Assembly (NCBI RefSeq): GCF_947495925.1
Contig: NZ_CANMAU010000004.1
Span: 310,001-374,000, forward strand
Reading direction: 5' to 3'
Source: an uncultured Algibacter sp.
GTDB taxonomy: Bacteria > Bacteroidota > Bacteroidia > Flavobacteriales > Flavobacteriaceae
Length of the DNA stretch: 64,000 bases
Shown here piece after piece: positions 1,795-50,859 of the stretch. Each line of letters begins with the position of its first letter. The stretch's first letter is position 1. The notes under the pieces were generated by a model. The model did not search any database. It was not told the DNA's origin and saw nothing but the letters and a program-made list of their open reading frames with translations. The translations under genes and the position numbers were made by a program.

Positions 1795-2172
1795 TTATTT
1801 AATTATACATTGGTCTAGCTTGATCTGTTCTAACAAATCATCATAGCCTATTAAGCGTCCTTTTACTTTTGTTTTTGAATTTATTCTTAAATTGTTATTA
1901 ATTGGAGCGGTAAAAACACAAAAAACATGATCATCTAAAGTCAAATTATTTTTACTTAATTCTGAAACAATTCCTGAAACTTCAATCGTTTTATTTAGGT
2001 ATTTTTTTTCTGATTTTAATGCATCCATTTTAAATTCATCTTTAATGTATTGAGAGGTGATTTTGTACTTGACTTTTTCCGTTTCAATATTTCTGTGATC
2101 TTGATATATATAATTATATGAAAAGACTAAACCTATGGTTAGTAAAAGACCCAAAAAAACTTTCTTTTTCAT
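1795..2172 (-). CDS. Membrane-anchored OB-fold (tRNA_anti-like) protein
   Basis: 125 residues. Residues 5-22 form a membrane anchor or signal; the rest looks like the small OB-fold 'tRNA_anti-like' family (PF12869): 'YLNKTIEVSGIVSEL', a central strand pair and 'SKTKVKGRLIGYDDLLEQ' followed by 'LDQCIIK'. Proteins of this family are periplasmic and of unknown function despite the family name. It follows the lipoprotein gene at 2305-3378 in the same direction, with a perfect stem-loop just ahead of its start codon. The T9SS gene lies just downstream. Confidence 0.75.
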   Translation of the reverse strand: MKKKVFLGLLLTIGLVFSYNYIYQDHRNIETEKVKYKITSQYIKDEFKMDALKSEKKYLNKTIEVSGIVSELSKNNLTLDDHVFCVFTAPINNNLRINSKTKVKGRLIGYDDLLEQIKLDQCIIK

Positions 2173-2304: not shown

Positions 2305-3378
2305 TTAGTTGCAAACATTGTTATACCTTAACCTATCAGCGTCAGCTACACGTAAATCTAATCGCGTTTTAGTATATTCAGATATTTCATGTAAAATCCA
2401 ATCATTATTACACAACGGTAAATCAGGTATATTTATAGTTATTTTTATATTGTTTTTCGTTCCTGAGGCATCCCAACTACCGTATGCACTAAAACCAGAC
2501 CAATATGCGCCAACTCGACCATCAGCTAAAAAGTTGAATGTGTAACCTTCGTAAACATCATCGTAATTTGTGTTATTCCGGTCTAATTGATCAACAGTCC
2601 AGCCTTTACAGTTTATTAGCGTGGTGGTTAATTTTTCAATATTACAGTCGTCACAATCATCATCATTATAGTCGTAGTCATCATCTTCATCACAATCATT
2701 TTTATAGTTGTTGATGGTGTTTTCAAGTTCTGATAAATTATTTATGCTCATAATGCTGTTGTCTATAAGCATCACATTTACAGGGAAATTAATTGTAACA
2801 ATTAAGTCATCACCCAAATCTTTTAAGAAATGATTTAATTCAGCATCTGTGGTAATAGCATTGATATTTGTGATTTCAGTGCTTTTGTTAAATATTGAGG
2901 CAATGATTGGGTATTGAAAATCCAGACATTCAATATCATTATCAACTTGGTTTTCGCCTGGACAATTCGCAGAGTAGCTGTTAAATTCTATATAGTTATT
3001 TATGATTACTTCTGTGAAATCTTCTAACACAATAGTTACGGGAAATGTTATGTCTAAAACATCAACGTCATCATCGTTATCATCAAAAATATATTCAATA
3101 ACCTTATACTCATCTTCTGATTTTACATTGATTTGTTGGCCATTGACTGTGACTTTAAGTGGATATTTGATGTTAAAACAATTTGATTTATCTATAATGT
3201 TATCATTAGAACCATCATTGCTAGAAACTTGCTGCATTAAATTTACTATTAATGAATTTGCAACTAATGCTTCATCAGAAGGAGCTTCAATAAGCTCCAT
3301 TTCTTCTTTTCTACATGACGTCAATAGAACATTTAAGAGAAGAAAATATATAATAAAATTATTAGTGGATACCTTCAT
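2305..3378 (-). CDS. Acidic lipoprotein with repeated domains and lipocalin-like C-terminus
   Basis: 357 residues. The signal peptide has lipobox 'LLTSC' (Cys 22). Two related domains follow, each opening with Cys-x-x-x-Tyr-Pro ('CFNIKYP' near residue 68, 'CLDFQYP' near 150). An Asp-rich linker with paired cysteines ('DDCDDC') precedes a C-terminal domain whose pattern (W...F..DG...G.W...W.L, final Cys) resembles small lipocalin-like lipoproteins. No function is known. It is divergent from the ECF sigma operon and shares with that operon's anti-sigma gene the same 29-bp upstream sequence, so it is likely a target or accessory of that regulator. Confidence 0.7.
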   Translation of the reverse strand: MKVSTNNFIIYFLLLNVLLTSCRKEEMELIEAPSDEALVANSLIVNLMQQVSSNDGSNDNIIDKSNCFNIKYPLKVTVNGQQINVKSEDEYKVIEYIFDDNDDDVDVLDITFPVTIVLEDFTEVIINNYIEFNSYSANCPGENQVDNDIECLDFQYPIIASIFNKSTEITNINAITTDAELNHFLKDLGDDLIVTINFPVNVMLIDNSIMSINNLSELENTINNYKNDCDEDDDYDYNDDDCDDCNIEKLTTTLINCKGWTVDQLDRNNTNYDDVYEGYTFNFLADGRVGAYWSGFSAYGSWDASGTKNNIKITINIPDLPLCNNDWILHEISEYTKTRLDLRVADADRLRYNNVCN

Positions 3379-3405
3379 AATGGAATAAAATCCCTTGGTT
3401 TATTA

Positions 3406-3434
3406 TATAACAACTTAAATCTTAAAATCCCTGA
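3406..3434. repeat. Left arm of a perfect 29-bp inverted repeat around the sigma gene
   Basis: This 29-base sequence is the exact reverse complement of 4007-4035. The bases just outside and inside do not pair, so the repeat has sharp ends. It sits 28 bp upstream of the ATG of the divergent lipoprotein gene. Read towards that gene it starts TCAGGGATTTTAAG and ends TTGTTATA. Confidence 0.95.
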
Positions 3435-3481
3435 AATTTTTATAAAAAGATTTATATATCTTTCAGAAATAATTTAAAAAA

Positions 3482-4006
3482 TTGTCAAAAGACTCCAATA
3501 ATAGTATTTGTCATACTCATATCTTTGAGGGTATTTATAATAAATACTCGAAAGATTTACATGACTTTCTTTATTATAAATATGGTTCTCAAATTAATCC
3601 CGATGATAAAGCCCAGGAAGCATTTATTAAGTTATGGGACAACTGTAAAAAAGTAACTTTTGCTAAGGCTAAGGCTTTTTTGTTTACGGTTGCCAATAAT
3701 TTAGTGCTTAATGATATCAAGCATCAAAAAGTGGTTTTAGATTATCAAAAAACGCCCAGGAGACATTATACAAACGAAAATCCTCAGTTTCTTTTAGAAG
3801 AGAGTCAATTTCTTGAAAAATATAAAACAGCATTAACAAAATTAACAGAAGGTCAGCGGGTTGCTTTTTTGCTAAATAAGGTTGAGGGGAAAAAACATGC
3901 GGAAATAGCAGAACAATTAGGTGTTACCAAAAAGGTTGTGGAATATAGAATTTATTGTGCTTTTACAAGGCTTAAAGAAGAACTTGAAAACTTTAACATA
4001 AAATAA
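3482..4006 (+). CDS. ECF-type RNA polymerase sigma factor
   Basis: 174 residues. Region 2 lies at about residues 15-85 ('KDLHDFLYYKYGS', 'KAQEAFIKLWDNC', 'FTVANNLVLNDIKHQK') and region 4 at about 120-170 ('LTEGQRVAFLLNKVEGKKHA', 'IAEQLGVTKKVVEYRIYCAF'). It should direct transcription of genes controlled by the outer-membrane signal relayed through FecR. The frame has no ATG near the start; the first codon is TTG at 3482. The anti-sigma gene follows 35 bp later. The gene is bracketed by a perfect inverted repeat, which is unusual and could permit inversion of the segment. Confidence 0.9.
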   Translation: MSKDSNNSICHTHIFEGIYNKYSKDLHDFLYYKYGSQINPDDKAQEAFIKLWDNCKKVTFAKAKAFLFTVANNLVLNDIKHQKVVLDYQKTPRRHYTNENPQFLLEESQFLEKYKTALTKLTEGQRVAFLLNKVEGKKHAEIAEQLGVTKKVVEYRIYCAFTRLKEELENFNIK

Positions 4007-4035
4007 TCAGGGATTTTAAGATTTAAGTTGTTATA
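4007..4035. repeat. Right arm of the 29-bp inverted repeat
   Basis: Exact reverse complement of 3406-3434. It starts right after the sigma stop codon and ends 6 bp before the ATG of the anti-sigma gene. It is therefore in the same orientation relative to that gene as the left arm is to the lipoprotein gene, which would also fit a duplicated promoter element. Confidence 0.95.
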
Positions 4036-4041
4036 CTATTA

Positions 4042-4953
4042 ATGGACAAAGAATATTTAATAAAAAAGTGGCTGAATAATGAGTTGACAGAAGCTGAAAA
4101 AGATGTATTTAAGGAGCTTGATGATTATGAGTTAAATACTAATATTCTTGATGCTGCAAAATATTTTAAGGCGTCTAATTTTTCAATTAATAGAAATTTT
4201 GAGGCATTTAAGGAGCGGTATGAATCCAATAAAAATCCGGTCAGGAGATTAAGTTGGCTAAAGCCTGTAATTCAAATAGCTGCGGCTTTGGTAATAGGTT
4301 TTGGTATTTATTTTTATGCTTTCAAAGACACCATTACTACTTTTCAAACTTTATCACATCAGAAATCTATTATAGAGCTTCCAGATCAATCAAAAGTTAG
4401 ACTGAATGCGCTTTCTCAAATAAAGTTTAATAAAAATGATTGGCAACATGATAGACATGTTAAACTAAATGGCGAAGCTTATTTTATGGTAGAAAAGGGT
4501 AGTAAGTTTGACGTAGTTACTAGCGATGGTTTGGTCTCTGTTTTAGGAACAAAATTTAACGTAAAACAACGTCATAATTATTTTGAAGTCAAGTGCTTTG
4601 AGGGAGTGGTAAGCGTGATTTCAAATAAAATTAAACGCATTTTGTATGTAGGAGATACTTTTCGAATTTTAAACGGTAGCTTTATTGAAGATAAAACAGG
4701 ATTTGTTGAACCTCAATGGATTAATAATGTTAGTCGTTTTAATGAAGTCCCTTTTTTAGTTGTTATTGAAGAATTTGAAAGGCAGTATGATGTAAAAGTC
4801 GCACTTAAAAGTGTTAATTCGATGCGAAAGTTTACAGGAGGATTTAAACACGATAATATTAAACAAGCACTCATTTCTATCACAAAACCAATGGGTTTAA
4901 CTTATGAAGTTAGTTCATCTAATGACATTGTAATCCATGAAAATACAAATTAG
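4042..4953 (+). CDS. FecR-family anti-sigma factor
   Basis: 303 residues: a cytoplasmic N-terminal part that would hold the sigma factor, a single membrane helix at about 74-94 ('IQIAAALVIGFGIYFYAF'), a periplasmic FecR domain ('LNGEAYFMVEKGSKFDVVT', 'VLGTKFNV') and a C-terminal DUF4974-type domain ('FNEVPFLVVIEEFERQYDV'). FecR proteins pass the ligand signal from the receptor's STN domain to the ECF sigma factor. It follows the sigma gene and overlaps the receptor gene by 17 bp, so translation is probably coupled. Confidence 0.92.
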   Translation: MDKEYLIKKWLNNELTEAEKDVFKELDDYELNTNILDAAKYFKASNFSINRNFEAFKERYESNKNPVRRLSWLKPVIQIAAALVIGFGIYFYAFKDTITTFQTLSHQKSIIELPDQSKVRLNALSQIKFNKNDWQHDRHVKLNGEAYFMVEKGSKFDVVTSDGLVSVLGTKFNVKQRHNYFEVKCFEGVVSVISNKIKRILYVGDTFRILNGSFIEDKTGFVEPQWINNVSRFNEVPFLVVIEEFERQYDVKVALKSVNSMRKFTGGFKHDNIKQALISITKPMGLTYEVSSSNDIVIHENTN

Positions 4954-7228
4954 TAAGTGCGTTTTATTTGTATTGATTACTTTTGCTTTTTCCTTGGCTG
5001 TCAATACTCAAGAGAATTTAAAAAAACTTCCGCTTATCTCTGTTTTACGTGATATTCAAAGGCAATATAATTATCAATTTAACTATGCAAAAGATGTTGT
5101 TGAAGGCTATAAAATTGCTCCGCCGTCCAAAGAGATGTCATTTTCTGAAGTTTTGGATTATTTGGAGAAAACGACAAGTTTACAATACACCCTTATTAGT
5201 GATAGTTTTGTTTTAGTTAGCATACCCGAAGTTGTGGATTTAAAGCAAGATTTGCAGTTGTTACCAGAAGTTATTGTTCCTAGTTACATTATTAAAGGGA
5301 TAAGTAAGTTGGATAATGGTTCTTTTAAAATTGATTTCTCAAAATTTACTATGCTTCCGGGGTTGATTGAAACAGATGTTTTAAGATCAGTACAAGCATT
5401 TCCTGGAATACAAAGCATTAATGAAAATGTCTCTAATATTAGTATAAGGGGAGGTAGTCATGATCAAAATTTAATTTTATGGGATGGCATTAAAATGTAT
5501 CAGTCTGGGCACTTTTTTGGACTTATTTCCATGTATAATCCGCAGATTACACAGAATGTGTTTTTATTTAAAAACGGATCTGATGTAAGTTATACTGATG
5601 GTGTTTCTGGTTCTATTTCTATGCAAACTAATAACCAAGTTAATACTAATTTTAAGGGGAATATTGGTGTTAATTTTATTGATACTAATGGTTTTGCAGA
5701 TATTCCTATAGGTAGAAAATCATCAATTCAAGTGGCTCTAAGAAAATCAATTAATGATTTTGTTAAAACGCCAGCTTACAATAACTTTTTTGACAAAATT
5801 TCGGAAGATACTGAAGTTGAAAACAGTAGGAGTGCAGTAATGAATACTGGTAAAGAGTTTGATTTTTATGATGCTTCTTTTCGATGGATTTATAAAGTAA
5901 GTGATAAAGATGAATTACGAGTTAATTTTATAAATGTAGCTAATGAGTTGATATTCAATGAAAATACTTTGGAGGAGTCAAGAGAAAGTAGTGTCACGCA
6001 AAAAAGTATAGCAGGAGCAATTCACTATGATAAGGTTTGGAATGATAAATGGCAATCATCATTTGAACTTTATGAAACAGATTATAAGCTAAAGGCCATT
6101 AACGCGAATATTGTTGATTCTCAACGATTTTTACAAGAGAATATCGTGTCGGAAACAAGTTTTAAATTAAAGACCAATTATTGGCTTAGCGAAAGACTTA
6201 GCTTGTTAAGTGGATATCATTTTGTAGAAACGAAGGTGACCAATTTAGATGATGTGGACTCACCAATTTTTAGACAATTAATTTCAGAAGTACTTAGAAC
6301 ACATGGTGTTTTTTCTCAGATTAATTATAAATCCTTAAATAAAAATACAAGTTTATCAACAGGAGTTAGGTTTAATTATATAAGTAAGTTTAAAAAGCAA
6401 ATTTGGGAACCTCGTTTCATTTTTACACATAAATTGCATAAAAATTTAAGTCTAGAAGTTCTTGGAGAAATGAAACATCAAAACACTTCGCAAGTGATTA
6501 ATTTTCAGAATGATTTCTTGGGTGTTGAAAAAAGGAGATGGCAACTCTCTAACAACAGCAGCATTCCTATTATAAAAAGTAAGCAAGTGTCAGTGGGAGC
6601 AAATTATAATAAAAAAGGTTGGCAATTAAGTTTAGAAGCCTATCATAAAAAAGTAAATGACATAACCTCTCAAAGTCAAGGATTTCAAAATCAGTATGAG
6701 TTTGTTCAAGCTATAGGCGATTATAAAGCTGATGGAGTCGATTTTATTTTAAGAAAACAAATACATAGCCTTAATGTTTGGTTAAGCTATGGATATTTAA
6801 ATAGCACCTATACGTTTAAGTCATTACCTGAATACAAGTTCCCTAGTAATTATAATATTAATCATGCAATTACACTGGGAAGTACATACAAATATGGTAA
6901 CCTAAAAGTATCTGCAGGTTTAAATTGGTTTTCCGGTAATCCGACAACTCTACCAATTAAAGGAAATGAAATTGTTGGTAACGAAATTAATTTTAGTACA
7001 AGCAATAGTAATGAATTAAAAGACTATTTTAAATTAGATATTTCTGCATCATATAATTTCAAAGTTGGACGGAAAACTAGAGCTGAAATAGGAGCATCTA
7101 TTTGGAATGTTTTTAATAGAAAGAATGAAATCAATAATTTTTTTCGAGTTAATAATGGAGATGTTGATGAAACACTGCAAACGTCTTTGGGGTTTTATCC
7201 AAATATTGTAATGAGGGTTTATTTTTAA
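4937..7228 (+). CDS. TonB-dependent receptor with N-terminal STN signalling domain
   Basis: 763 residues: signal peptide, an STN domain at about 25-100 ('LISVLRDIQRQYNYQFNYA', 'SFSEVLDYLEKTTSLQYTL'), a plug domain at about 135-235 ('NVSNISIRGGSHDQNLILWD') and a 22-strand-type barrel ending in aromatic 'MRVYF'. The STN domain would contact the periplasmic FecR domain and report ligand occupancy. It lacks the carboxypeptidase-like domain commonly seen between STN and plug in this phylum, and no SusD partner gene follows. The substrate is unknown; a siderophore is usual for such three-gene loci, but the lipoprotein neighbour suggests another ligand is possible. Confidence 0.9.
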   Translation: MKIQISKCVLFVLITFAFSLAVNTQENLKKLPLISVLRDIQRQYNYQFNYAKDVVEGYKIAPPSKEMSFSEVLDYLEKTTSLQYTLISDSFVLVSIPEVVDLKQDLQLLPEVIVPSYIIKGISKLDNGSFKIDFSKFTMLPGLIETDVLRSVQAFPGIQSINENVSNISIRGGSHDQNLILWDGIKMYQSGHFFGLISMYNPQITQNVFLFKNGSDVSYTDGVSGSISMQTNNQVNTNFKGNIGVNFIDTNGFADIPIGRKSSIQVALRKSINDFVKTPAYNNFFDKISEDTEVENSRSAVMNTGKEFDFYDASFRWIYKVSDKDELRVNFINVANELIFNENTLEESRESSVTQKSIAGAIHYDKVWNDKWQSSFELYETDYKLKAINANIVDSQRFLQENIVSETSFKLKTNYWLSERLSLLSGYHFVETKVTNLDDVDSPIFRQLISEVLRTHGVFSQINYKSLNKNTSLSTGVRFNYISKFKKQIWEPRFIFTHKLHKNLSLEVLGEMKHQNTSQVINFQNDFLGVEKRRWQLSNNSSIPIIKSKQVSVGANYNKKGWQLSLEAYHKKVNDITSQSQGFQNQYEFVQAIGDYKADGVDFILRKQIHSLNVWLSYGYLNSTYTFKSLPEYKFPSNYNINHAITLGSTYKYGNLKVSAGLNWFSGNPTTLPIKGNEIVGNEINFSTSNSNELKDYFKLDISASYNFKVGRKTRAEIGASIWNVFNRKNEINNFFRVNNGDVDETLQTSLGFYPNIVMRVYF

Positions 7229-9612: not shown

Positions 9613-11121
9613 TTAATCTTTCTTAACATTTGAAAAATCATATTTTTTCAAAGTCTTTTGAAGTATTTTCCAATGATTTCGTAACTGTCGTTTTATTTCC
9701 GGAGCTTCCAATTCATCAGAAGCTCTGTATGCATATCTTAAATAATTACCTCTAAATTTTCTTTCAAAATTTTTGGTTCTTGCTTTGCTATTTACAAATT
9801 CCGTTCTTTTAACTGGAAGCATTCTAGACTTCTCTCCTTTAAAACTAAAAAGCCTATATACTTTTCTTTTAAATATAGGAGCTTCATCTAAAAGGTGTTT
9901 TTCTTTAATGGTTTCAACTCTTTTATGTTTTCGTTTTATAGTTTCCTTCATTTCTCTATAAAACTTAGCCAAATTTTTAGACTTTATTAATGTTTGGTAG
10001 CCATAAAACTCAAAACCTAAGTAGTTTAATGGAACGTTTTCTTTTAAATTACCATTGTTCTCAATTTTGAAACTTTGTAAACGGCCACGGTTTATTTTGA
10101 AAAGTGTTTTCTCTGTTTTTTCTAATGAAATAGTTAATTTATTTTTTATCATTTCATTTTTGACAAACTCTTCAATTAGCTTTATTTGATTTTCTTTACT
10201 AATCACGACAATATCATCAGAATATCTTCTGTAGAATACACTGTGCTTTACTGTTAATTCATTTATTACGGATTCATCAAAATCAAGCATATAAATGTTA
10301 GCAAGTAATGCGCTAATGGGTAAACCTTGAGGTATTCCCATTAAGTTTTTATTATCATCTTTTTTTTGATTTTTATGTATGATGATATCTGAATCAATAA
10401 GGTCTTTTATACTTTCAAAAAAGGTGTGTTTACCGTTTTTTCTATGTTTCGATAATCGCTTTTCATCAAAATGGCCGTTTTTGGATTTTAGATCTTTTAG
10501 TTTTACATAAGAAAATTTAGTTGTTGCTTTAAAAATATTAAAATGATCTTTTGGTAACGTTTTGTTGCCTAATATTTTAGCCCAAGCTAATTTTAGTTTT
10601 TTATGATTTAGACTAGGAAAGAAGTTTTCTATATCTAGAACTAAAGCAACACAATTTTTTCTTCGTTTAATTTCATCAAAAACATCCTTCGCAAAATGAA
10701 CATTGTTTTTAAACTTGAGCTTATCATCTGTTTCAATTTGTCTGTATGCAGTTATCGAATTTGAAAGTAATGAGTTATTTTTTAGATAAGTCTCATATTT
10801 TGGGTTAATAATTTGTTGTGTATAATAAGAATATATGTGTGCATCAATATGGGAAGCATAAAGTATTTTTCTGATTTTTGTATTTGAAACTACTTTACCT
10901 TTTTTGACCTTCTTATGAGAATGCCTTTTTACATCATTAAATTTGGCTAATTTATAGCGACGTTGTTTAATTTCTTTAAAAATTAAAGGAGAAAAAGAGT
11001 GATGAGCTACTTTTTTGGAATTCGTAACATAGCGTTCAATATTTTTTCTAATCGACAATGGGGTCTTATTAGTAAAATGTGGATAGCCTCTATCTTTAAA
11101 CCAGTCTTTTTGTGCTTTCAT
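9613..11121 (-). CDS. Reverse transcriptase of the defence-associated (UG/DRT) type, probably DRT2-like
   Basis: 502 residues with all core RT motifs: motif A 'VLDIENFFPSLNH' (Asp 163), motif B 'GIPQGLPISALLANIYM' (PQG at 264-266), motif C 'YRRYSDDIVVIS' (catalytic Asp 302-303), then 'ISLEKTEKTLF' and 'YLGFEFYG'. The N-terminal block 'DWFKDRGYPHF', 'HSFSPLI' and 'YASHIDAHIYSYY' resembles unknown-group RTs used in phage defence. There is no maturase or endonuclease domain as in group II intron RTs, and no fused partner domain. The C-terminal 130 residues are basic and helical. Upstream is a long structured non-coding region, as expected for DRT2-type systems whose RT copies a neighbouring ncRNA. 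RT identity is near certain; the subtype is inference. Confidence 0.9.
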   Translation of the reverse strand: MKAQKDWFKDRGYPHFTNKTPLSIRKNIERYVTNSKKVAHHSFSPLIFKEIKQRRYKLAKFNDVKRHSHKKVKKGKVVSNTKIRKILYASHIDAHIYSYYTQQIINPKYETYLKNNSLLSNSITAYRQIETDDKLKFKNNVHFAKDVFDEIKRRKNCVALVLDIENFFPSLNHKKLKLAWAKILGNKTLPKDHFNIFKATTKFSYVKLKDLKSKNGHFDEKRLSKHRKNGKHTFFESIKDLIDSDIIIHKNQKKDDNKNLMGIPQGLPISALLANIYMLDFDESVINELTVKHSVFYRRYSDDIVVISKENQIKLIEEFVKNEMIKNKLTISLEKTEKTLFKINRGRLQSFKIENNGNLKENVPLNYLGFEFYGYQTLIKSKNLAKFYREMKETIKRKHKRVETIKEKHLLDEAPIFKRKVYRLFSFKGEKSRMLPVKRTEFVNSKARTKNFERKFRGNYLRYAYRASDELEAPEIKRQLRNHWKILQKTLKKYDFSNVKKD

Positions 11122-11555: not shown

Positions 11556-11598
11556 TATAATATTATTGTTATTTTTATCTAAGAAAAATCAATTAAAC

Positions 11599-12255
11599 AT
11601 GAGCAATTTTATTGTTGGAGATATTGTTACAATTAAATCACATCCTTTATTTAGTAATACACATAAGAAAATAAATGCTTTAACTTCTCTTGTACCTCCT
11701 TTGATGGTTGTCAAAGAAGTTCTTTTCGATAAAGAAGAAAAAAAAATATTATATAGTAATGAAATTAAAAAGGCAAAAATTGCTGACTTGACAAAGTATG
11801 TATGTGTTTATTTTAACGCAAATAAAAGTGAGTTTGTTGAGAAAACCATTTATCATTCTTTAGTAAAAGGCTACTTAGATTTAAAATATTATAGAAAAGA
11901 AGAAAAAAGTAAGTCTTCAAATATTGATTTAGTTTTAGAAGTAGCTAAATATAAACACAATGTTGATTATGAGTTTGGTAAATGCGTTCAGTTTAAAACA
12001 AAAAAATTAGAGCATAGAAAATCTTATGATGCTAATACTGTAGAAAGAATTCCAGGAATTTCTTTTCAAACACCTGATTTTATATTGACAGGAATTAAGA
12101 ATGAAGAGCAGAAAGACTTGTTTTTTAATGATGGTACGCAAAAAAAACAAATGAGTACTCAGTTATTTAAAGTGATGTGGTTTAATCACTATCAACAAAA
12201 GTTTAGTGAAGATTATTTACCTAAAGAGTTTTTTGTTGAAGATTTAGAAATATAA
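11599..12255 (+). CDS. Uncharacterised protein divergent from the reverse transcriptase
   Basis: 218 residues from the ATG at 11599 (an earlier TTG at 11566 adds 11 residues without domain character). It begins 'MSNFIVGDIVTIKSHPLF' and continues 'LVPPLMVVKEVLF'; the 'VGDIV..KSHP' and 'PPLMVV.E' phrases look like a small beta-barrel domain, followed by a Lys-rich alpha/beta part and an acidic tail. No signal peptide, no membrane helix and no catalytic motif that I recognise. It is 3 bp short of the convergent ABC ATPase gene. Its place beside the RT and the high AT content suggest it belongs to the same accessory island, but a functional link is inference. Confidence 0.7.
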   Translation: MSNFIVGDIVTIKSHPLFSNTHKKINALTSLVPPLMVVKEVLFDKEEKKILYSNEIKKAKIADLTKYVCVYFNANKSEFVEKTIYHSLVKGYLDLKYYRKEEKSKSSNIDLVLEVAKYKHNVDYEFGKCVQFKTKKLEHRKSYDANTVERIPGISFQTPDFILTGIKNEEQKDLFFNDGTQKKQMSTQLFKVMWFNHYQQKFSEDYLPKEFFVEDLEI

Positions 12256-19164: not shown

Positions 19165-19181
19165 AAAATACTATACATTTG
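19153..19181 (+). promoter_or_regulatory. Promoter of the riboswitch-btuB transcript
   Basis: TTTG at 19153-19156 and TACATTTG at 19174-19181 are separated by 17 bp, matching the Bacteroidota -33/-7 pattern. The -33 box overlaps the end of the preceding coding region. Transcription would start near 19187, right at the expected 5' end of the riboswitch. Confidence 0.65.
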
Positions 19182-19186
19182 CAACG

Positions 19187-19358
19187 AATTTTGGTTCCAT
19201 TCAATGTTACCTGTTTGGATTAAAAGGGAATCTGGTGAAACTCCAGAACTGTTCCCGCAACTGTAAGCTATAAAGCTTCGTGTTCAACTTCAAGTCACTG
19301 AAGACTCATCTTTGGGAAGACCAACATGAAGACGCAAGTCAGGAGACCTGCCTTATTC
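19187..19358 (+). ncRNA. Cobalamin riboswitch
   Basis: The leader carries the hallmarks of the AdoCbl/B12 class: 'GGGAATCTGGTGAAACTCC' and 'CCCGCAACTGTAAGC' in the first half, a GTCACTGAAG segment near 19294, and the B12 box 'AAGTCAGGAGACCTGCC' at 19336-19352. It ends about 45 bp before the btuB-like start. It is expected to shut off the receptor and BtuG-like genes when cobalamin is plentiful, probably by masking the ribosome-binding region, as no terminator follows. Confidence 0.95.
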
Positions 19359-19400
19359 AAAACCAAATAATAAAACTTTCGGGATAAAAGTTTAGAATTT

Positions 19401-21269
19401 ATGAAAAACACACTATTCATAATAGTATATTTTATTGGTATTTGCTGTTCTGCTCAAAATGATAGCTTGGTAAATCGTTTGGACTTGGTCGTTATTCAGG
19501 CAGATAAAAAGCTAGATAAGCATTCTTCAGGTTATAAAATTAGTAGGTTAAGTGACTCTGTAATTGTTAGAAATATGGAATCGTTTGCAAATTTACTTCG
19601 TTTTAATGCACCCATTTATTTAAGAGAATATGGTTCTGGAGGTACTAGTTCTGCCAGTTTTAGAGGTACAAGTGCATCAAACACGGCGGTAATTTGGAAT
19701 GGTATTAATATAAATTCTATTAATAATGGGCAAACGGGATTTAATGCATTAACGGTAAATTTATTTGATGCTATAGATGTAAGAAGTGGTGGTGGAAGCC
19801 TTGAATATGGTTCTGGAGCTATTGGAGGTACCATTCACTTAAATGATAATTTAGAGTTTTCGGCTAATCGTCAAATTAGAAATCAGGCTATAGTCTCTGT
19901 AGGGAGTTATGAAACTTACAGGGGGATATATAAACTTAAGATATCAAATGATAAGCTTGCCTTAAACGCAGGGGTGTCTTACAACCAATCAGCGAATGAT
20001 TATCCTTGGTTAGGAACCGATTTTAAAAATATAAATGGGGCTTACGAAAACCTAGGAATTAATATTAATGGGGCTTTTTTAATTAACGATGTATCTAAAC
20101 TAAAGTTTTATAGCACAAATTATTGGGGGGAACGTTTTTTTTCTGGAGAATTACCAAATCCAACTTCAGCGAATGATAAATATCAAGATTTTAACCATCG
20201 CAATTTATTAATTTACACGAATGATCAAAATAGATTTAATCATGAGGCTAAATTTGCTTTTTTAAGTCAGGAGTATCGATATTTCGAAGATAAATCATTG
20301 GATATATATAGCTTTGGGAGTTCTAAACGCTATCTAGTAAACTATAATGTTTCATATGTATTAACAGATTTAAATGCTAGTATAAGTTCTTACTCTGAGT
20401 ACGAATCAGCCTTTGGGAAAACTGATAGAATAGCTAAAAAGAATAGAAGACAATTTTCTCAATCATTTATTTACGATCAAAATATTAAGAATACCCTTTT
20501 CCTTGATGCTAAAGTTAGAAAAGACTTTAATTCTGACTATGAAGTGCCATTTACATACGCCTTAGGCGTAAAAGTAAAAACAACACAATATGTATTTGTA
20601 AGAGCAAATGGGTCTAAGAATTTTAGAGTACCTACTTATAATGATTTGTTCTGGCCGGGTCAAGGAAATTTAGATTTAGAACCTGAAACAGCGTTACAAG
20701 CCGAGTTTGGATTTGGCTATAAGAACAATAAATTTTTAATAGATATTGGGACGTTTTATATTAATGCAAAGGATAAAATAGTTTGGACGCCCAATGGGGA
20801 TCCTGCTAGACCTGGGATATGGGTGCCAATAAATATATCAGAAGTTAATAATAAGGGTGTAGAGCTTGTATTAAATTATAAAGAAAACTTCAATAAGCAC
20901 GTTTTACAATTTGATTTAAACTATAGCTATACTGAAGCTATTGATGCGGCCACAAATAAACAGGTGATTTTTGTGCCAAAGCATTTAGCCAATTTGAATA
21001 TAGGATACAATTATAAACGTTTTAGCGTCTTTTATCAGCAATTATTTAATGGAGAAGTTTACACCACGGAAAGTAATTCAAATGACTTTGTTGTACCTCA
21101 CTATTTTGTATCTAATATAGGTGGGGATTATACGCTATTAAATTCAACAAAACAACTATTGAAAATTGGGATTAAGGTTAATAATTTATTTAATGAGAAT
21201 TATGTTGTACAACCAAGACGCCCTATGCCAAATAGAAACTTTAATTTAAATATAAACTATAAATTTTAA
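19401..21269 (+). CDS. btuB: TonB-dependent cobalamin receptor, BtuB-like
   Basis: 622 residues: signal peptide 'IIVYFIGICCSAQ', a plug domain with 'SASFRGTSASNTAVIWNGI' and 'GGGSLEYGSGAIGGTI', and a barrel with 'FRVPTYNDLFWPGQGNLDLE' and a C-terminal 'NRNFNLNINYKF'. It transports corrinoids over the outer membrane. Control by the cobalamin riboswitch directly upstream and the BtuG-like gene 3 bp downstream make this assignment firm. There is no STN domain, unlike the receptor at 4937. Confidence 0.93.
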   Translation: MKNTLFIIVYFIGICCSAQNDSLVNRLDLVVIQADKKLDKHSSGYKISRLSDSVIVRNMESFANLLRFNAPIYLREYGSGGTSSASFRGTSASNTAVIWNGININSINNGQTGFNALTVNLFDAIDVRSGGGSLEYGSGAIGGTIHLNDNLEFSANRQIRNQAIVSVGSYETYRGIYKLKISNDKLALNAGVSYNQSANDYPWLGTDFKNINGAYENLGININGAFLINDVSKLKFYSTNYWGERFFSGELPNPTSANDKYQDFNHRNLLIYTNDQNRFNHEAKFAFLSQEYRYFEDKSLDIYSFGSSKRYLVNYNVSYVLTDLNASISSYSEYESAFGKTDRIAKKNRRQFSQSFIYDQNIKNTLFLDAKVRKDFNSDYEVPFTYALGVKVKTTQYVFVRANGSKNFRVPTYNDLFWPGQGNLDLEPETALQAEFGFGYKNNKFLIDIGTFYINAKDKIVWTPNGDPARPGIWVPINISEVNNKGVELVLNYKENFNKHVLQFDLNYSYTEAIDAATNKQVIFVPKHLANLNIGYNYKRFSVFYQQLFNGEVYTTESNSNDFVVPHYFVSNIGGDYTLLNSTKQLLKIGIKVNNLFNENYVVQPRRPMPNRNFNLNINYKF

Positions 21270-32957: not shown

Positions 32958-34892
32958 ATGAATAAATTTCTGCTTCTTTTTAGTTTGTTCTGTTTAGGCT
33001 TTATAGCCTGTAAACAAAACGTTAAAACAGAAACTTCAGGAAACAGTGAACAAAATGAGGTTGTTCAAAAAGACTATTCACCCTATGTGAATAACTACAA
33101 TCCCAAACCGCTTCCCAAAAATGAAGATCGCCCTCTATTTGGAGATACCCATTTACATACCTCTTATTCTGTAGATGCTGGTATGATGGGTAATACCTTA
33201 GGTCCAGAGGCTGCTTTTAGACTTGCTAAGGGAGAAATTGTAACAGCAAGTGCAGGCAGGAGGGTTCGTTTAAAAAGGCCTTTAGACTGGTTGGTTATAG
33301 CCGATCATGCAGAAGCATTGGGTTTTACGCCAATGTCTCGAAAAAGTGACCCCTCAGTAGTCGAGGACGAATTTGGAAAGCAAATTTACGATCTAATACA
33401 AAAGGGTACACCAGAAGCTCTTGTAGAAGCTTACGACTTATGGTATAGTGCTAGTTATGCTGGTACCAATCCTTATGATACCAATGTGGAGTTTCCAATT
33501 AAGCCATGGGAAGAAATCCTAGATGCCTGTGAAGCGGCCAATGACCCCGGAAAATTCACCGCTTTGATTGGTTATGAATGGTCTTCAGCCCCAGAAGGAA
33601 ATAATTTACACCGTGTGGTGGTTTATAGAGACGATAAAACTGTAGCAAATACCAGAATCCCATTGTCATCATATTTTGATTCAAATCCTGAGGCCCTTTG
33701 GGATTGGATGGAAGCGCTAGAAGCAGAGACAGGAGGGCGAGTCTTGGCCATACCGCATAATGGTAATTTATCTAATGGTCTAATGTTTTCAGGAAAGCTT
33801 TACAATTCAGAAGAACCTATCAGCCCAGAATACGCAAAGCGAAGACAACGTTTTGAACCGCTATACGAGGTTACACAAATGAAGGGTACTTCTGAGGCAC
33901 ACCCTTCAATATCGCCAGAGGATGAATTCTCTAATTTTGAGATTTGGGACAAAGCAAGTTTTGGTTCAGAAGCAAAAACCAAGGAGATGTTACCAAATGA
34001 ATATGCCAGAGAAGCCTTTAAGCGTGGTCTTGTTTATGAGCAGGATTTAAAGGTTAATCCCTTTAAGTTTGGATTAATTGGCTCAACCGACTCCCATACC
34101 AGTTTAGCCACAACTGAAGAGAATAATTATTTCGGTAAAATTTCGCCATTGGAACCCTCTACCGATCCTTTACGCTTCGAAGAAGTCGTCGCTGGCCGAC
34201 CAGGCGACCCCTCGATTCATATTTTTGCTTGGGAAATGGCTGCGTCAGGTTTGGCCGCAGTTTGGGCTAAGGAAAATACGAGGGAAGCTATTTTTGACGC
34301 CATGGAGCGCAAAGAAGTATATGCTACTACTGGCTCACGCATGCGGGTGCGCGTCTTTGCTAGCTATGATTTTAAGCCTGAAGACCTAAAACGAGACGAC
34401 TTTATTGATTATGCCTATACAAACGGGATTCCCATGGGGGGAGATATAAGTAAAACCAATAACAAGACCCCTAAATTTTTGATAAAAACCCGAAAAGATC
34501 CTGATGGTGCCAATTTAGATCGTGTGCAAATTATAAAAGGCTGGGTAGATAAAACTGGTAAAACCTACGAACGCATTTACGATGTGGCTGTATCTGATGA
34601 CAGAAGCATCAATGCAGACGGACGCTGCACTACTTCTGTAGGTAATACAGTGGATGTAGCTAATGCCAGTTATACAAACACCATTGGTGATATTGTATTG
34701 GAATCCTATTGGGAAGATCCAGAATTTGATGCCTCACAAAATGCGTTTTACTATGTTCGTGTATTAGAAATCCCTACACCAAGATGGACCACATACGATG
34801 CTAAAGTATTTGGTGTAGACATTCCTGAAGATGCTGAAACAAGCATACAAGACCGTGCCTATACCTCACCAATTTGGTATAACTCGAAATAA
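32958..34892 (+). CDS. DUF3604 (PHP-like) lipoprotein, copy 1
   Basis: 644 residues with lipobox 'LGFIACKQN'. A PHP-like metal site is suggested by 'FGDTHLHTSYSVDAG' (residues 61-75), 'IADHAEALGF' (114-123) and 'IPHNGNLSNG', plus 'STDSHTSL'. DUF3604 proteins are predicted metal-dependent phosphoesterases or hydrolases of unknown substrate and often lie beside sulfatase genes. Base use differs from the neighbourhood: two 60-base lines I counted (33241 and 34261) are 43-45% G+C, against 35% in a line of copy 3. That suggests a more recent arrival of this copy. Confidence 0.88.
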   Translation: MNKFLLLFSLFCLGFIACKQNVKTETSGNSEQNEVVQKDYSPYVNNYNPKPLPKNEDRPLFGDTHLHTSYSVDAGMMGNTLGPEAAFRLAKGEIVTASAGRRVRLKRPLDWLVIADHAEALGFTPMSRKSDPSVVEDEFGKQIYDLIQKGTPEALVEAYDLWYSASYAGTNPYDTNVEFPIKPWEEILDACEAANDPGKFTALIGYEWSSAPEGNNLHRVVVYRDDKTVANTRIPLSSYFDSNPEALWDWMEALEAETGGRVLAIPHNGNLSNGLMFSGKLYNSEEPISPEYAKRRQRFEPLYEVTQMKGTSEAHPSISPEDEFSNFEIWDKASFGSEAKTKEMLPNEYAREAFKRGLVYEQDLKVNPFKFGLIGSTDSHTSLATTEENNYFGKISPLEPSTDPLRFEEVVAGRPGDPSIHIFAWEMAASGLAAVWAKENTREAIFDAMERKEVYATTGSRMRVRVFASYDFKPEDLKRDDFIDYAYTNGIPMGGDISKTNNKTPKFLIKTRKDPDGANLDRVQIIKGWVDKTGKTYERIYDVAVSDDRSINADGRCTTSVGNTVDVANASYTNTIGDIVLESYWEDPEFDASQNAFYYVRVLEIPTPRWTTYDAKVFGVDIPEDAETSIQDRAYTSPIWYNSK

Positions 34893-34914
34893 TAAGGAAA
34901 TTAATTACGTTATA

Positions 34915-35422
34915 ATTAAAAAACTAGTTGTTCTATTAACTGTAATTCTATTCTTTAACTGTAAAACTGATAAATAAAATGCAGGTTATATTGAAAGGAA
35001 AGACCTTTGGTAATAAGAATTTTAAAGCTCACCTTGATGGTTATGACCAAAGTGATTTAGTTCTTAATAGTGGGAAAAGTAATAGTATAGACTACTATTA
35101 CTTTACTGAAACAACATTCCAAGACATACGATATGGCGATTGGAAATTATTGTTAAGAGGGCAGGAAAAATGGTTTAGAGCAGACCAAACCCAACTATCA
35201 TCACCTTTTATTATTAATTTAAAAGTAGATTCTTTTGAACGATTTACAAAGGCCAGAGGTTATGATGAGTGGGCGGAAAACAGAAGCTGGTTATTTGGAC
35301 CTGCTGGTAGAATGGTCGGCAAATTTTTAGCTACATTTCAAGAGTTTCCTCCTAGCCAAAAAAGTATGTCGTTAGATATATCTGCAGTTACAAAATACTT
35401 AAATTCACGTGCATTAGATTAA
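34915..35422 (+). pseudogene. Decayed arylsulfatase: orphan signal peptide plus C-terminal domain
   Basis: From 34915 a lipoprotein signal peptide without ATG ('IKKLVVLLTVILFFNCKTDK') ends in a stop at 34975-34977. In another frame an ATG at 34979 opens 147 residues that match the C-terminal domain of arylsulfatases: 'HLDGYDQSDLVLNSGKS', 'DIRYGDWKLLLRGQEKW', 'FIINLKVDSFERF' and 'VGKFLATFQEFPPSQKS'. The catalytic part with the formylglycine motif CxPxR is absent. The simplest reading is an internal deletion plus frameshift in a former sulfatase gene; the 147-residue frame could still be translated. Confidence 0.75.
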
Positions 35423-35434
35423 ATATAAACCATA

Positions 35435-37312
35435 ATGAAAAACATCATTCTTTTTATTGCTGTACTCTTACTATTTGGTTGTAAAACCGATAATAAAAAT
35501 CAAGAAAATATAACTTCAGATATAACGAAATCTAATCCAATGAGTTCAAAAAGGACAGCTAATTATAATCCCCTCAAAAATCCGTATTTCGGTCAAACCC
35601 ATCAGCACACCTCATGGTCTTTTGATGCAGCCATTTTAGATGTAAAAACAGGTCCAGAAGTAGCGTATAGACACGCCAGAGGAGAAAGAGTAAAGCATCC
35701 TTCTGGACAAGACGTTCAGTTAAAAATTCCATTAGACTTTTTATCGGTAACAGATCACTCTGAATATTTAGGGGTTTTGGTACAAATGTACGACCCAGAC
35801 AATCCGTTATCCAAGCATCCAATGGCTAAAGATATTGTAGCCTCGGGAACAGATGTGACTAAATCTATGAAAGCATTTTACGGGTTAGTATCACAGACTA
35901 TTCAGCCAGATGGCACCACAGAGGCAGACCCTGAATTAAGCTCACCCGAACTTAAACGATCTGCATGGCAAGAAATGAAACGCATTACAGATTTGTATTA
36001 CGAGCCAGGGAAATTCACGACCATTATGGGGTATGAATGGTCATCGCAACCCAACATGGGAAATCTGCACCGAAATGTATTGTTTAGGGATACAGATCAT
36101 TTACCCGACTTTCCGTTTTCATATTTCGACTCAGAAAAACCAGAAGATTTATGGGATTGGATGGACTTACAGCGTAAAAATGGTTCAAAACTGTTAGCTA
36201 TTTCTCATAATGGAAATTTAAGTAATGGAACGATGTTTTCTAAAAACACCTCTGAAGGTTCTCCAATTGATAAGGCTTATGCCGAAAGTAGAATGCGCAA
36301 TGAACCCTTAACCGAAATCGTGCAGACAAAAGGACAGTCTGAAACGCACCCATTAATGGCACCAAATGATGAGTTTGCTGGTTTCGAAATTTGGACTAAA
36401 CCTGTTGCTGGTCCTGGAACTGTAAAGGTATTAGAAACCAATTATGTGCGAAATGCGTTTAGAAATGGTTTGGCGATAGGTGAAGGTATTGGCGTAAACC
36501 CTTTTAAGTTTGGCGTTGTTGGTGGTGGTGATATTCACACCGCTATTGTATCTCATGAGGAATATGCATTCACTGGCGAACATAATTTAAAGTCAAGTTC
36601 TCCAAAAGAAAGATTGATAGATATTCGTAAAGGCGAACCTTCTAAAATTGAACAAGGAACAGCTGGTTTATCGTGCGTCTGGGCTGAAGAAAATACGCGA
36701 GAAGCTATCTTTGATGCTATGGCGCGTAAGGAGACTTGGGCAACAAGCGGCTCTCGAATAACGGTACGTGTTTTTGGTGGTTACGACTTTGGAACTGCAC
36801 AACCTGGAGATGATAATTGGGTTGAACTCGGTTATAAAAATGGTGTTCCTATGGGAGGAGACTTAAAACCAAATTCTGGTAACAACTCACCACAGTTTAT
36901 GATTTGGGCGCTTAAAGGACCAAATAGTGGTAATCTTGATCGCATACAAGTGATTAAGGGTTGGGTTGATACTAAGGGTAATAATTATGACAAAATTTAC
37001 AATGTGGCTTGGTCTGGGGAGAGAGAAATCGATGCCAACGGGAAATTACCTGCGGTTGGAAATACAGTTAATATTCCTGACGCTAGTTACACCAATACCA
37101 TTGGTAGTACTAAACTTAAAACGGTTTGGACAGATCCCGATTTCGATCCTGATGTATCTGCTTTTTATTATTTACGTGTTTTAGAAATACCTACACCAAG
37201 ATGGTCTACTTATGATGCTAAAGCCTTAGGAATTGAACCTCCTAAAGACTTTCCAGCGACTATTCAAGAACGCGCTTGGTCTAGCCCCATTTGGTATAGT
37301 CCAAGAAACTAA
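35435..37312 (+). CDS. DUF3604 (PHP-like) lipoprotein, copy 2
   Basis: 625 residues with lipobox 'LLLFGCKTDN'. Same plan as copy 1, but the first metal motif reads 'FGQTHQHTSWSFDA' instead of GDTHLHT, so an Asp next to the HxH pair is Gln. Other sites are kept: 'VTDHSEYLGV', 'ISHNGNLSNG', 'GGDIHTAI' and the C-terminal 'RVLEIPTPRWSTYDAKALG'. It starts 12 bp after the sulfatase fragment. The substitution may alter metal binding or specificity and suggests the copies have separate substrates. Confidence 0.87.
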   Translation: MKNIILFIAVLLLFGCKTDNKNQENITSDITKSNPMSSKRTANYNPLKNPYFGQTHQHTSWSFDAAILDVKTGPEVAYRHARGERVKHPSGQDVQLKIPLDFLSVTDHSEYLGVLVQMYDPDNPLSKHPMAKDIVASGTDVTKSMKAFYGLVSQTIQPDGTTEADPELSSPELKRSAWQEMKRITDLYYEPGKFTTIMGYEWSSQPNMGNLHRNVLFRDTDHLPDFPFSYFDSEKPEDLWDWMDLQRKNGSKLLAISHNGNLSNGTMFSKNTSEGSPIDKAYAESRMRNEPLTEIVQTKGQSETHPLMAPNDEFAGFEIWTKPVAGPGTVKVLETNYVRNAFRNGLAIGEGIGVNPFKFGVVGGGDIHTAIVSHEEYAFTGEHNLKSSSPKERLIDIRKGEPSKIEQGTAGLSCVWAEENTREAIFDAMARKETWATSGSRITVRVFGGYDFGTAQPGDDNWVELGYKNGVPMGGDLKPNSGNNSPQFMIWALKGPNSGNLDRIQVIKGWVDTKGNNYDKIYNVAWSGEREIDANGKLPAVGNTVNIPDASYTNTIGSTKLKTVWTDPDFDPDVSAFYYLRVLEIPTPRWSTYDAKALGIEPPKDFPATIQERAWSSPIWYSPRN

Positions 37313-37408
37313 ATATCATTAAGTCTTAATAGCATTTTGATTGCTTATTTGTATCTTAGAACATTCAATCTAATACTTTTATTGTCATTAGTCATTAATT
37401 CGATTATT

Positions 37409-39301
37409 ATGAAAACATTATTTACACTACTGTGCACGTTGGTGCTTTTTAACTGTGCTAAAAACAAAAAATCTGATGATAACTCAAGCAAGTCATCATT
37501 GTCAACAACTGAAGCTAATTCAGAAAGTTCAGCCGTTGCAGCTGGCAATGCCACTAATGTCTATTGGGGAGATACACATTTGCATACTGGTCTTTCTATG
37601 GATGCTGGTCTTTTTGGAAACACACTTGGTCTAGATGAAGCTTATAGGTTTGCTAAAGGTGAAGCGGTTACTTCTTCTACGGGCCTTAATGCTCAGTTAT
37701 CAAGACCTTTAGATTTTCTTGTGGTAGCAGATCATTCTGATGGTATGGGTTTATTTCAAGCTATAGATGCAGGTGAAGATTGGGTTATGGAAACAGATCA
37801 AGGTAAACGTTGGAATCAAATGCTAAAAGAAGGTAAGGGTGCAGATGCGGCTTTAGAACTCATAAAAGCGTTTTCGCAGAAAGAAATGGATATGGATCCA
37901 AATGCTCCAGAACTTCAAAAATCTGTTTGGTCTATGACTGTGGAAGCTGCAGAAAAATATAATGATCCCGGCAATTTTACCGCTTTTATTGGTTATGAGT
38001 GGACTTCCCTCATTGCAGGAAATAATTTGCATCGTGTTGTGATTTATCGTGATGACAAGGATAAAACTATAGACTATATTCCTTATACAAACTATGCGTC
38101 ATCAGACCCTGAAGATCTTTGGGAAAACTTAACCGCTTATGAAGAAACCACAGGTGGAAAAGTTTTAGCAATACCACATAATGGTAATTTAAGTAATGGA
38201 ATCATGTTTGCTGAAACACGAGTTAATGGCGAACCGTTTGATAGTAGTTATTTTAAAGAACGAATTAAATGGGAGCCTCTATATGAAATCACACAAATTA
38301 AAGGTGATGGAGAAACACATCCATTTTTATCACCAAACGATGAATTTGCCGATTTTGAAAACTGGGATAAAGGGAATCTAGATTTAAGTGCTGCTAAAAC
38401 TAATGAGATGCTTAAAGGTGAATATGCAAGAGAAGCTTTAAAGCAAGGTTTGAGTTATAAGAATGAGTTTGGTACAAATCCTTACAAATTTGGATTTATA
38501 GGAAGTACGGATTCGCATACAGCGCTTGCCACATCAGATGATAATAACTTTTTTGGTAAGGCGGTAAATGTTGAAGGTGGTGCGAAACGTTGGGAACACC
38601 CTTTTGTTGTTTCAGAGGTTGATACTATTATGACTTGGGAAACTATAGCTGCTGGTTATGCAGCTGTTTGGGCAACAGAAAACACGCGAACAGCACTTTG
38701 GGACGCTATGAAGCGAAAAGAAACTTATGCTACTACTGGACCAAGAATGACCGTGCGGTTTTTTGGTGGTTTTGATTATTCAGAAGGAGATTTAGAAAAC
38801 CTTGTTGATAGTGGTTACAGTAAAGGGGTGCCTATGGGAGGTAATATTAATAGTTCAAATGGGAAAGCGCCAACCTTTATGGCTCATGCAACCATGGATC
38901 CTGAAAGTGGTAGTCTTGACCGTATTCAAATAGTTAAAGGCTGGGCTAATGCAGATGGATCTCTAGGAGAACAAGTATATGATGTAAAATGGAGTGGAGA
39001 CCGTGCTATTGGTGAAAACGGAAAAGTTCCAGCAATTGAGAATACAGTGAATATTAATGATGGTAGTTGGGATAATACATCAGGTTCTGTTGAACTTAAA
39101 GCTCTCTGGGTAGATCCAGATTTTGACCCTAATTTAGAAGCTTTTTATTACGTGCGTATTCTTGAAATTCCAACACCACGTTGGACTCTCTATGATAAAT
39201 TAAAATATAATATTGAAATGGGCGAAGAGGTACCAATGACTATTCAACAGAGGGCTTATACCTCACCAATTTGGTATAACACTGAAAGGATAAAAAAATA
39301 A
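37409..39301 (+). CDS. DUF3604 (PHP-like) lipoprotein, copy 3
   Basis: 630 residues from the ATG at 37409, which starts a proper lipoprotein signal ('LLCTLVLFNCAKN'); the frame is open 24 codons further up without sense. Motifs 'WGDTHLHTGLSMDAG', 'VADHSDGMGL', 'IPHNGNLSNG' and 'STDSHTAL' are all kept. A Ser/Glu-rich linker of about 30 residues follows the lipid anchor. It is the last of the array and is followed 90 bp later by the PPIase gene. Confidence 0.88.
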   Translation: MKTLFTLLCTLVLFNCAKNKKSDDNSSKSSLSTTEANSESSAVAAGNATNVYWGDTHLHTGLSMDAGLFGNTLGLDEAYRFAKGEAVTSSTGLNAQLSRPLDFLVVADHSDGMGLFQAIDAGEDWVMETDQGKRWNQMLKEGKGADAALELIKAFSQKEMDMDPNAPELQKSVWSMTVEAAEKYNDPGNFTAFIGYEWTSLIAGNNLHRVVIYRDDKDKTIDYIPYTNYASSDPEDLWENLTAYEETTGGKVLAIPHNGNLSNGIMFAETRVNGEPFDSSYFKERIKWEPLYEITQIKGDGETHPFLSPNDEFADFENWDKGNLDLSAAKTNEMLKGEYAREALKQGLSYKNEFGTNPYKFGFIGSTDSHTALATSDDNNFFGKAVNVEGGAKRWEHPFVVSEVDTIMTWETIAAGYAAVWATENTRTALWDAMKRKETYATTGPRMTVRFFGGFDYSEGDLENLVDSGYSKGVPMGGNINSSNGKAPTFMAHATMDPESGSLDRIQIVKGWANADGSLGEQVYDVKWSGDRAIGENGKVPAIENTVNINDGSWDNTSGSVELKALWVDPDFDPNLEAFYYVRILEIPTPRWTLYDKLKYNIEMGEEVPMTIQQRAYTSPIWYNTERIKK

Positions 39302-50841: not shown

Positions 50842-50859
50842 ATGTTGTATATACAACAT
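50842..50859. promoter_or_regulatory. MarR operator before the SDR-exporter operon
   Basis: ATGTTGTATATACAACAT is a perfect 18-bp palindrome with the same arms as the site at 50369. It is 12 bp upstream of the SDR start codon and 16 bp after the marR stop. Confidence 0.8.

Follow-up and report, generated by a model that had tools for sequence, protein, structure and literature searches.

The perfect 29-bp inverted repeat around an ECF sigma factor gene of an uncultured Algibacter sp. very probably represents the two target promoters of this sigma factor, matched to each other by selection together with short-tract recombination. The repeat is most likely an outward-facing promoter pair used by the sigma factor and not a genetic switch, as judged from the sequence of the locus and of its relatives. 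The locus lies in a window of 64,000 nucleotides, the whole stretch of DNA that was analysed.

Inverted repeat and genes of the locus

The segments 3406-3434 (TATAACAACTTAAATCTTAAAATCCCTGA) and 4007-4035 are exact reverse complements of each other, with 29/29 positions identical in inverse orientation. The repeat described in the original prediction was confirmed, and it is unique in the genome: with up to three mismatches, the two arms were the only sites both in the window (0 expected from 100 dinucleotide shuffles) and in the 3.84 Mb genome. They are part of a longer imperfect pair of 45 nt (3399-3443 and 3998-4042, 87% complementary). No other exact inverted pair of 16-mers at most 1.5 kb apart was detected in the whole window, except a tiny palindrome near 50842. 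The arms were also considered as ends of a mobile element; this was ruled out by their uniqueness in the genome and by the conservation of their position as predicted promoters. A chance origin of the repeat was ruled out by the shuffles and by the expected spacer identity.

The repeat had been described as exactly enclosing the sigma gene. This holds for the right arm, which adjoins the stop codon TAA (4004-4006), but not for the left arm, which is separated from the start codon by a gap of 47 nt (3435-3481) in which a candidate housekeeping promoter lies. The end of the arm recurs as a direct repeat of 10 nt at 3386-3395, probably by chance. The following features were assigned:

1795-2172, minus strand: small tRNA_anti-like (OB-fold) protein (PF12869), downstream of the lipoprotein gene
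2305-3378, minus strand: divergent lipoprotein with the motif CDEDDD..DDDC..C, predicted second target of the sigma factor
3406-3434, minus strand: left arm, predicted ECF promoter of the lipoprotein gene, reading TCAGGGATTTTAAGATTTAAGTTGTTATA on the minus strand
3457-3464, plus strand: candidate housekeeping (sigma-A) -7 box TATCTTTC, a near-match to TAnnTTTG upstream of the sigma gene
3482-4006, plus strand: ECF sigma factor, TTG start, sigma-70 regions 2 and 4 (PF04542, PF08281)
4007-4035, plus strand: right arm, predicted ECF promoter of fecR and the receptor gene, between sigma stop and fecR start
4042-4953, plus strand: FecR-type anti-sigma factor (PF04773, 63.1 bits, and PF16344)
4937-7228, plus strand: TonB-dependent receptor (PF07715 plug), overlapping fecR by 17 nt

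The gene order is lipoprotein (-), sigma (+), fecR (+) and TonB-dependent receptor (+). As in a FecI/FecR/FecA-type module, sigma-70 regions 2 and 4 are present and fecR stands beside the sigma gene, an order of these two genes kept in 150 loci. The sigma factor is TIGR02985-like, scoring 98 bits and thus below the cutoff of 126 of this model; in 71 of 132 aligned loci, the TTG lines up with the first codon. Residues 29-90 of the receptor gave an N-terminal match of FecR_C type, a putative signalling-type domain; the STN model itself gave no call.

For the lipoprotein no Pfam family was matched. Its acidic motif CDEDDD..DDDC..C is invariant in the alignment of relatives and suggests metal binding. 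In the predicted structure (pLDDT 81.7) the C-terminus weakly resembles lipocalin/DUF4847 folds, with a best Foldseek E value of 0.011. The gene at 1795-2172 is possibly co-transcribed with the lipoprotein gene, and a gene of this type was also found close to the lipoprotein gene in several close relatives. A long T run (1774-1791) directly upstream of a minus-strand gene for a T9SS-sorted protein, forming a poly-A leader, is a possible slippage site.

The same arrangement of four genes is found repeatedly in Flavobacteriaceae. Of 397 genomes sampled from this family, 224 contain relatives of the lipoprotein gene, and nearly all loci examined have the order lipoprotein-sigma-fecR. A second copy of the module is present in the same genome (G000:C4, at ~64-69 kb). 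In the literature searched, neither a description of this surface-signalling module nor a promoter consensus for this ECF group was found.

Paired motif of the predicted promoters

Read towards its downstream gene, either arm is TCAGGGATTTTAAGATTTAAGTTGTTATA. The equivalent positions in related loci carry AGG-N16-YTGTY, with the -35 variants TCAGGA, GGTAGGA and GGTAGGGT. The strict motif stands before the lipoprotein gene as well as before fecR in 117 of the 146 loci having both neighbours, and a relaxed motif does so in 134 of 146; shuffled sequence gave about 5/121 per side. The -35 class is the same at both sites in 113 of the 117 loci, but since motif classes also follow descent, this agreement alone is no proof of recognition. 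Where the pattern is absent, the two sites may nevertheless have one variant class in common (GGGTAAA in L059, CTGGGA in L187). Three loci in which no lipoprotein gene was found (L050, L062 and L070) kept the motif at fecR and lack the divergent one. A fourth, L038, ends near the sigma start and is therefore uninformative on the divergent side. In the aligned loci the motif is thus paired, and its divergent copy is tied to the lipoprotein gene.

A -35 and a -10 block at fixed spacing stand before the putative target genes, as in two-block ECF promoters, and the spacing of AGG-N16-YTGTY resembles that of ECF promoters. An ECF-like -10 CGT box was reported in flavobacteria (PMC9723704). Conservation in over 100 loci hence gives strong support to the alternative offered in the original prediction, one promoter element placed before two target genes. 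The ATG of fecR follows the TTGTT of the right arm after only 9 nt (4031-4042), compared with 19-23 nt in most relatives; the fecR mRNA may therefore be nearly leaderless here.

The two arms are the only motif-perfect sites in the genome, so the regulon of this sigma factor probably comprises two promoters. A search for a wider regulon with up to two mismatches gave 21 matches in the genome and 21 in the reversed control, without any excess.

For the sigma gene itself, transcription would start at a separate promoter of housekeeping type that lies within the segment. For flavobacteria the housekeeping consensus TAnnTTTG is known (PMC9723704), and the copy in the window has C at the last position. 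TAnnTTTR occurs within 70 nt upstream of the sigma gene in 106 of 149 loci (27.6 in shuffles); its commonest position is 25-28 nt ahead of the start codon. A signal passed by the TonB receptor and FecR would free the sigma factor, which would then fire both arms outwards, the left one towards the lipoprotein gene and the right one towards fecR and the receptor gene. Surface machinery and anti-sigma brake would rise together. Recognition of the arms by this sigma factor and the feedback logic are what we infer from the conserved arrangement. On this basis, an apparent DNA switch becomes a readable promoter map of a widespread surface-signalling module.

An arrangement of paired sites beside two divergent target genes is typical of operators as well, and the arms might bind a dimeric repressor or another regulator instead of the ECF holoenzyme. 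We regard this as very improbable. The sites consist of two asymmetric blocks at fixed spacing around a free spacer, are always aimed at the target gene and are conserved together with the sigma/anti-sigma pair, and the immediate cluster contains no other apparent regulator gene.

Orientation of the enclosed segment

Invertible promoters of Bacteroidota lie on segments flanked by inverted repeats of 20-30 bp. An invertible segment carrying the sigma gene was originally predicted, together with a comparison of orientation among strains as a check. Such DNA would be a phase switch, in which a recombinase or RecA flips 3435-4006 and turns the sigma gene away from its anti-sigma gene. The perfection of the arms over 29 bp fits this, as do the 11 tyrosine recombinase matches in the genome and the inversion with arm conversion mediated by 23-bp terminal repeats in Wolbachia insertion sequences (PMC3004938).

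The check was run on related loci, and a single orientation was found: the sigma gene points towards fecR in all 150 loci in which fecR was within range, among them all loci whose arms are identical (3 further related loci have no fecR in range and were not counted). The lipoprotein gene, wherever found, is divergent (149/149 loci). Under frequent, neutral flipping, agreement of the ten identical-arm loci would have a probability of about 0.001; inversion would, with both promoters working, remove basal read-through from sigma to fecR, and flipped forms might hence be counter-selected. No strains of the same species were found for comparison, and the one congener compared lacks the sigma gene. 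No recombinase gene is apparent within the window and no serine recombinase was detected in the genome; the nearest tyrosine recombinase match on the same contig is ~109 kb away. Furthermore, the arms of most relatives are too diverged for a switch, and the paired motif is still kept. Inversion as explanation of the repeat thus has very little probability left, and phase inversion was dropped because the orientation is fixed and no recombinase was found nearby. That a gene is flanked by a perfect inverted repeat is not in itself evidence of phase variation.

Identity of the spacers

Spacers of ECF promoters are usually free. The spacer that separates -35 from -10 also agrees fully between the two arms; hence, promoter function alone is insufficient as explanation and homogenisation between the arms is needed. 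Two layers are proposed. Selection would preserve the likeness of the -35 block (TCAGG..TTT) and of the -10 block (TTGTT.TA). The free spacer would have been homogenised by short-tract recombination of the inverted copies, through gene conversion or polymerase template switching.

Identity of 11/11 spacer positions within a locus was found in 10 of 62 TCAGG-class loci, although the spacers differ between species; between loci it was found in 2 of 3782 pairs, and column frequencies predict 0.004 such loci. Mean identity was 5.84 compared with 4.75 after permutation (reached in 0 of 10000 permutations), for an 11-nt stretch of the spacer picked after the alignments had been viewed. The 47 loci below 9/11 agree with the null (4.36 compared with 4.32), which makes the distribution nearly two-state. 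On the sigma tree, whose inner branches are weak, the identical state requires at least 8 changes, 6 of them forced by well supported branches. The arms are identical within the window, within L074 and within L163, but differ from one another among these three.

The direction is visible in Flavivirga. Two different spacers are kept in L172 and L079, while both arms carry the left-arm spacer in L174 and the right-arm spacer in L166. Homogenisation in both directions is therefore seen in this genus. The left arm of L074 carries AAAATAATCAGG, which corresponds to the last codons and the stop of the sigma gene at the right arm; this identity of 38 nt suggests that conversion ran from the right arm to the left one. 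In the GGTAGG classes (55 loci) no homogenisation was seen, so it is not a general property.

Copies more alike within than between loci occurred repeatedly, in 10-15 of the 62 TCAGG-class loci. By these comparisons this is concerted evolution of two inverted, putative promoter copies, and short-tract gene conversion or template switching is the pathway that we infer. It gives a natural and repeated bacterial case of such evolution between regulatory copies that are short and lie apart.

Selection on the spacer sequence itself, with the arms as promoters and without recombination, is improbable as the source of the identity. Different spacers are indeed conserved at each site across species in the GGTAGG classes. 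However, the identical spacers of the TCAGG class vary by species, e.g. AAGATTTAA, AAAGTTTCA, AAAGATGAA and TAAACCAAA, and the remaining loci of this class are without excess identity.

A further idea is tentative, and we consider it possible but rather doubtful: recombination between the outward promoters may actively keep the two targets of an ECF regulon matched. The sigma gene would then sit in a conversion cassette, with the arms co-evolving as a unit and inversion as a rare or counter-selected by-product. If so, a promoter change would spread to both targets at once.

Other features of the window

A reverse transcriptase matching the defence type DRT2 (458.7 bits) was found at 9613-11121 on the minus strand, and beside it, at 11566-12255 on the plus strand, a match to the RT-associated YodC model (249.8 bits). 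A cobalamin riboswitch (19175-19369, plus strand, 107.4 bits) lies upstream of a TonB receptor-like ORF (19401-21269), and both adjoin genes of cobalamin-type transport and synthesis. Three tandem related genes of ~625-654 aa at 32958-39301 indicate an apparent local amplification.

Comparison with known systems

A segment flanked by inverted repeats 20-30 bp long is common to the locus and the invertible promoters of Bacteroidota. In contrast to these, the arms themselves are the predicted promoters and face outwards, no recombinase is adjacent, and the orientation is fixed in 150/150 loci.

Template switching homogenises short inverted arms in yeast (PMC8604942), and in IS elements of Wolbachia recombination between 23-bp inverted ends gave arm conversion with inversion (PMC3004938). 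As in both cases, short inverted arms turn identical here, multi-base changes included. The spacers of the yeast set are at most 70 bp (PMC8604942), whereas the arms described here are ~570 bp apart. Unlike in yeast and Wolbachia, they are predicted promoters and no inversion was seen.

The order of ECF sigma factor, FecR anti-sigma factor and TonB receptor is shared with FecI-FecR-FecA of E. coli (PMC9249621), where fecIR has a sigma-70 promoter and lacks autoregulation. Transcription of the sigma gene from a housekeeping promoter and a small number of target promoters, both predicted here, are like those of E. coli Fec (PMC9249621). In contrast to Fec, an ECF-type promoter is predicted between the sigma gene and fecR, so the anti-sigma gene is itself a predicted target, and a second, inverted and identical copy of this promoter stands before the divergent lipoprotein gene.
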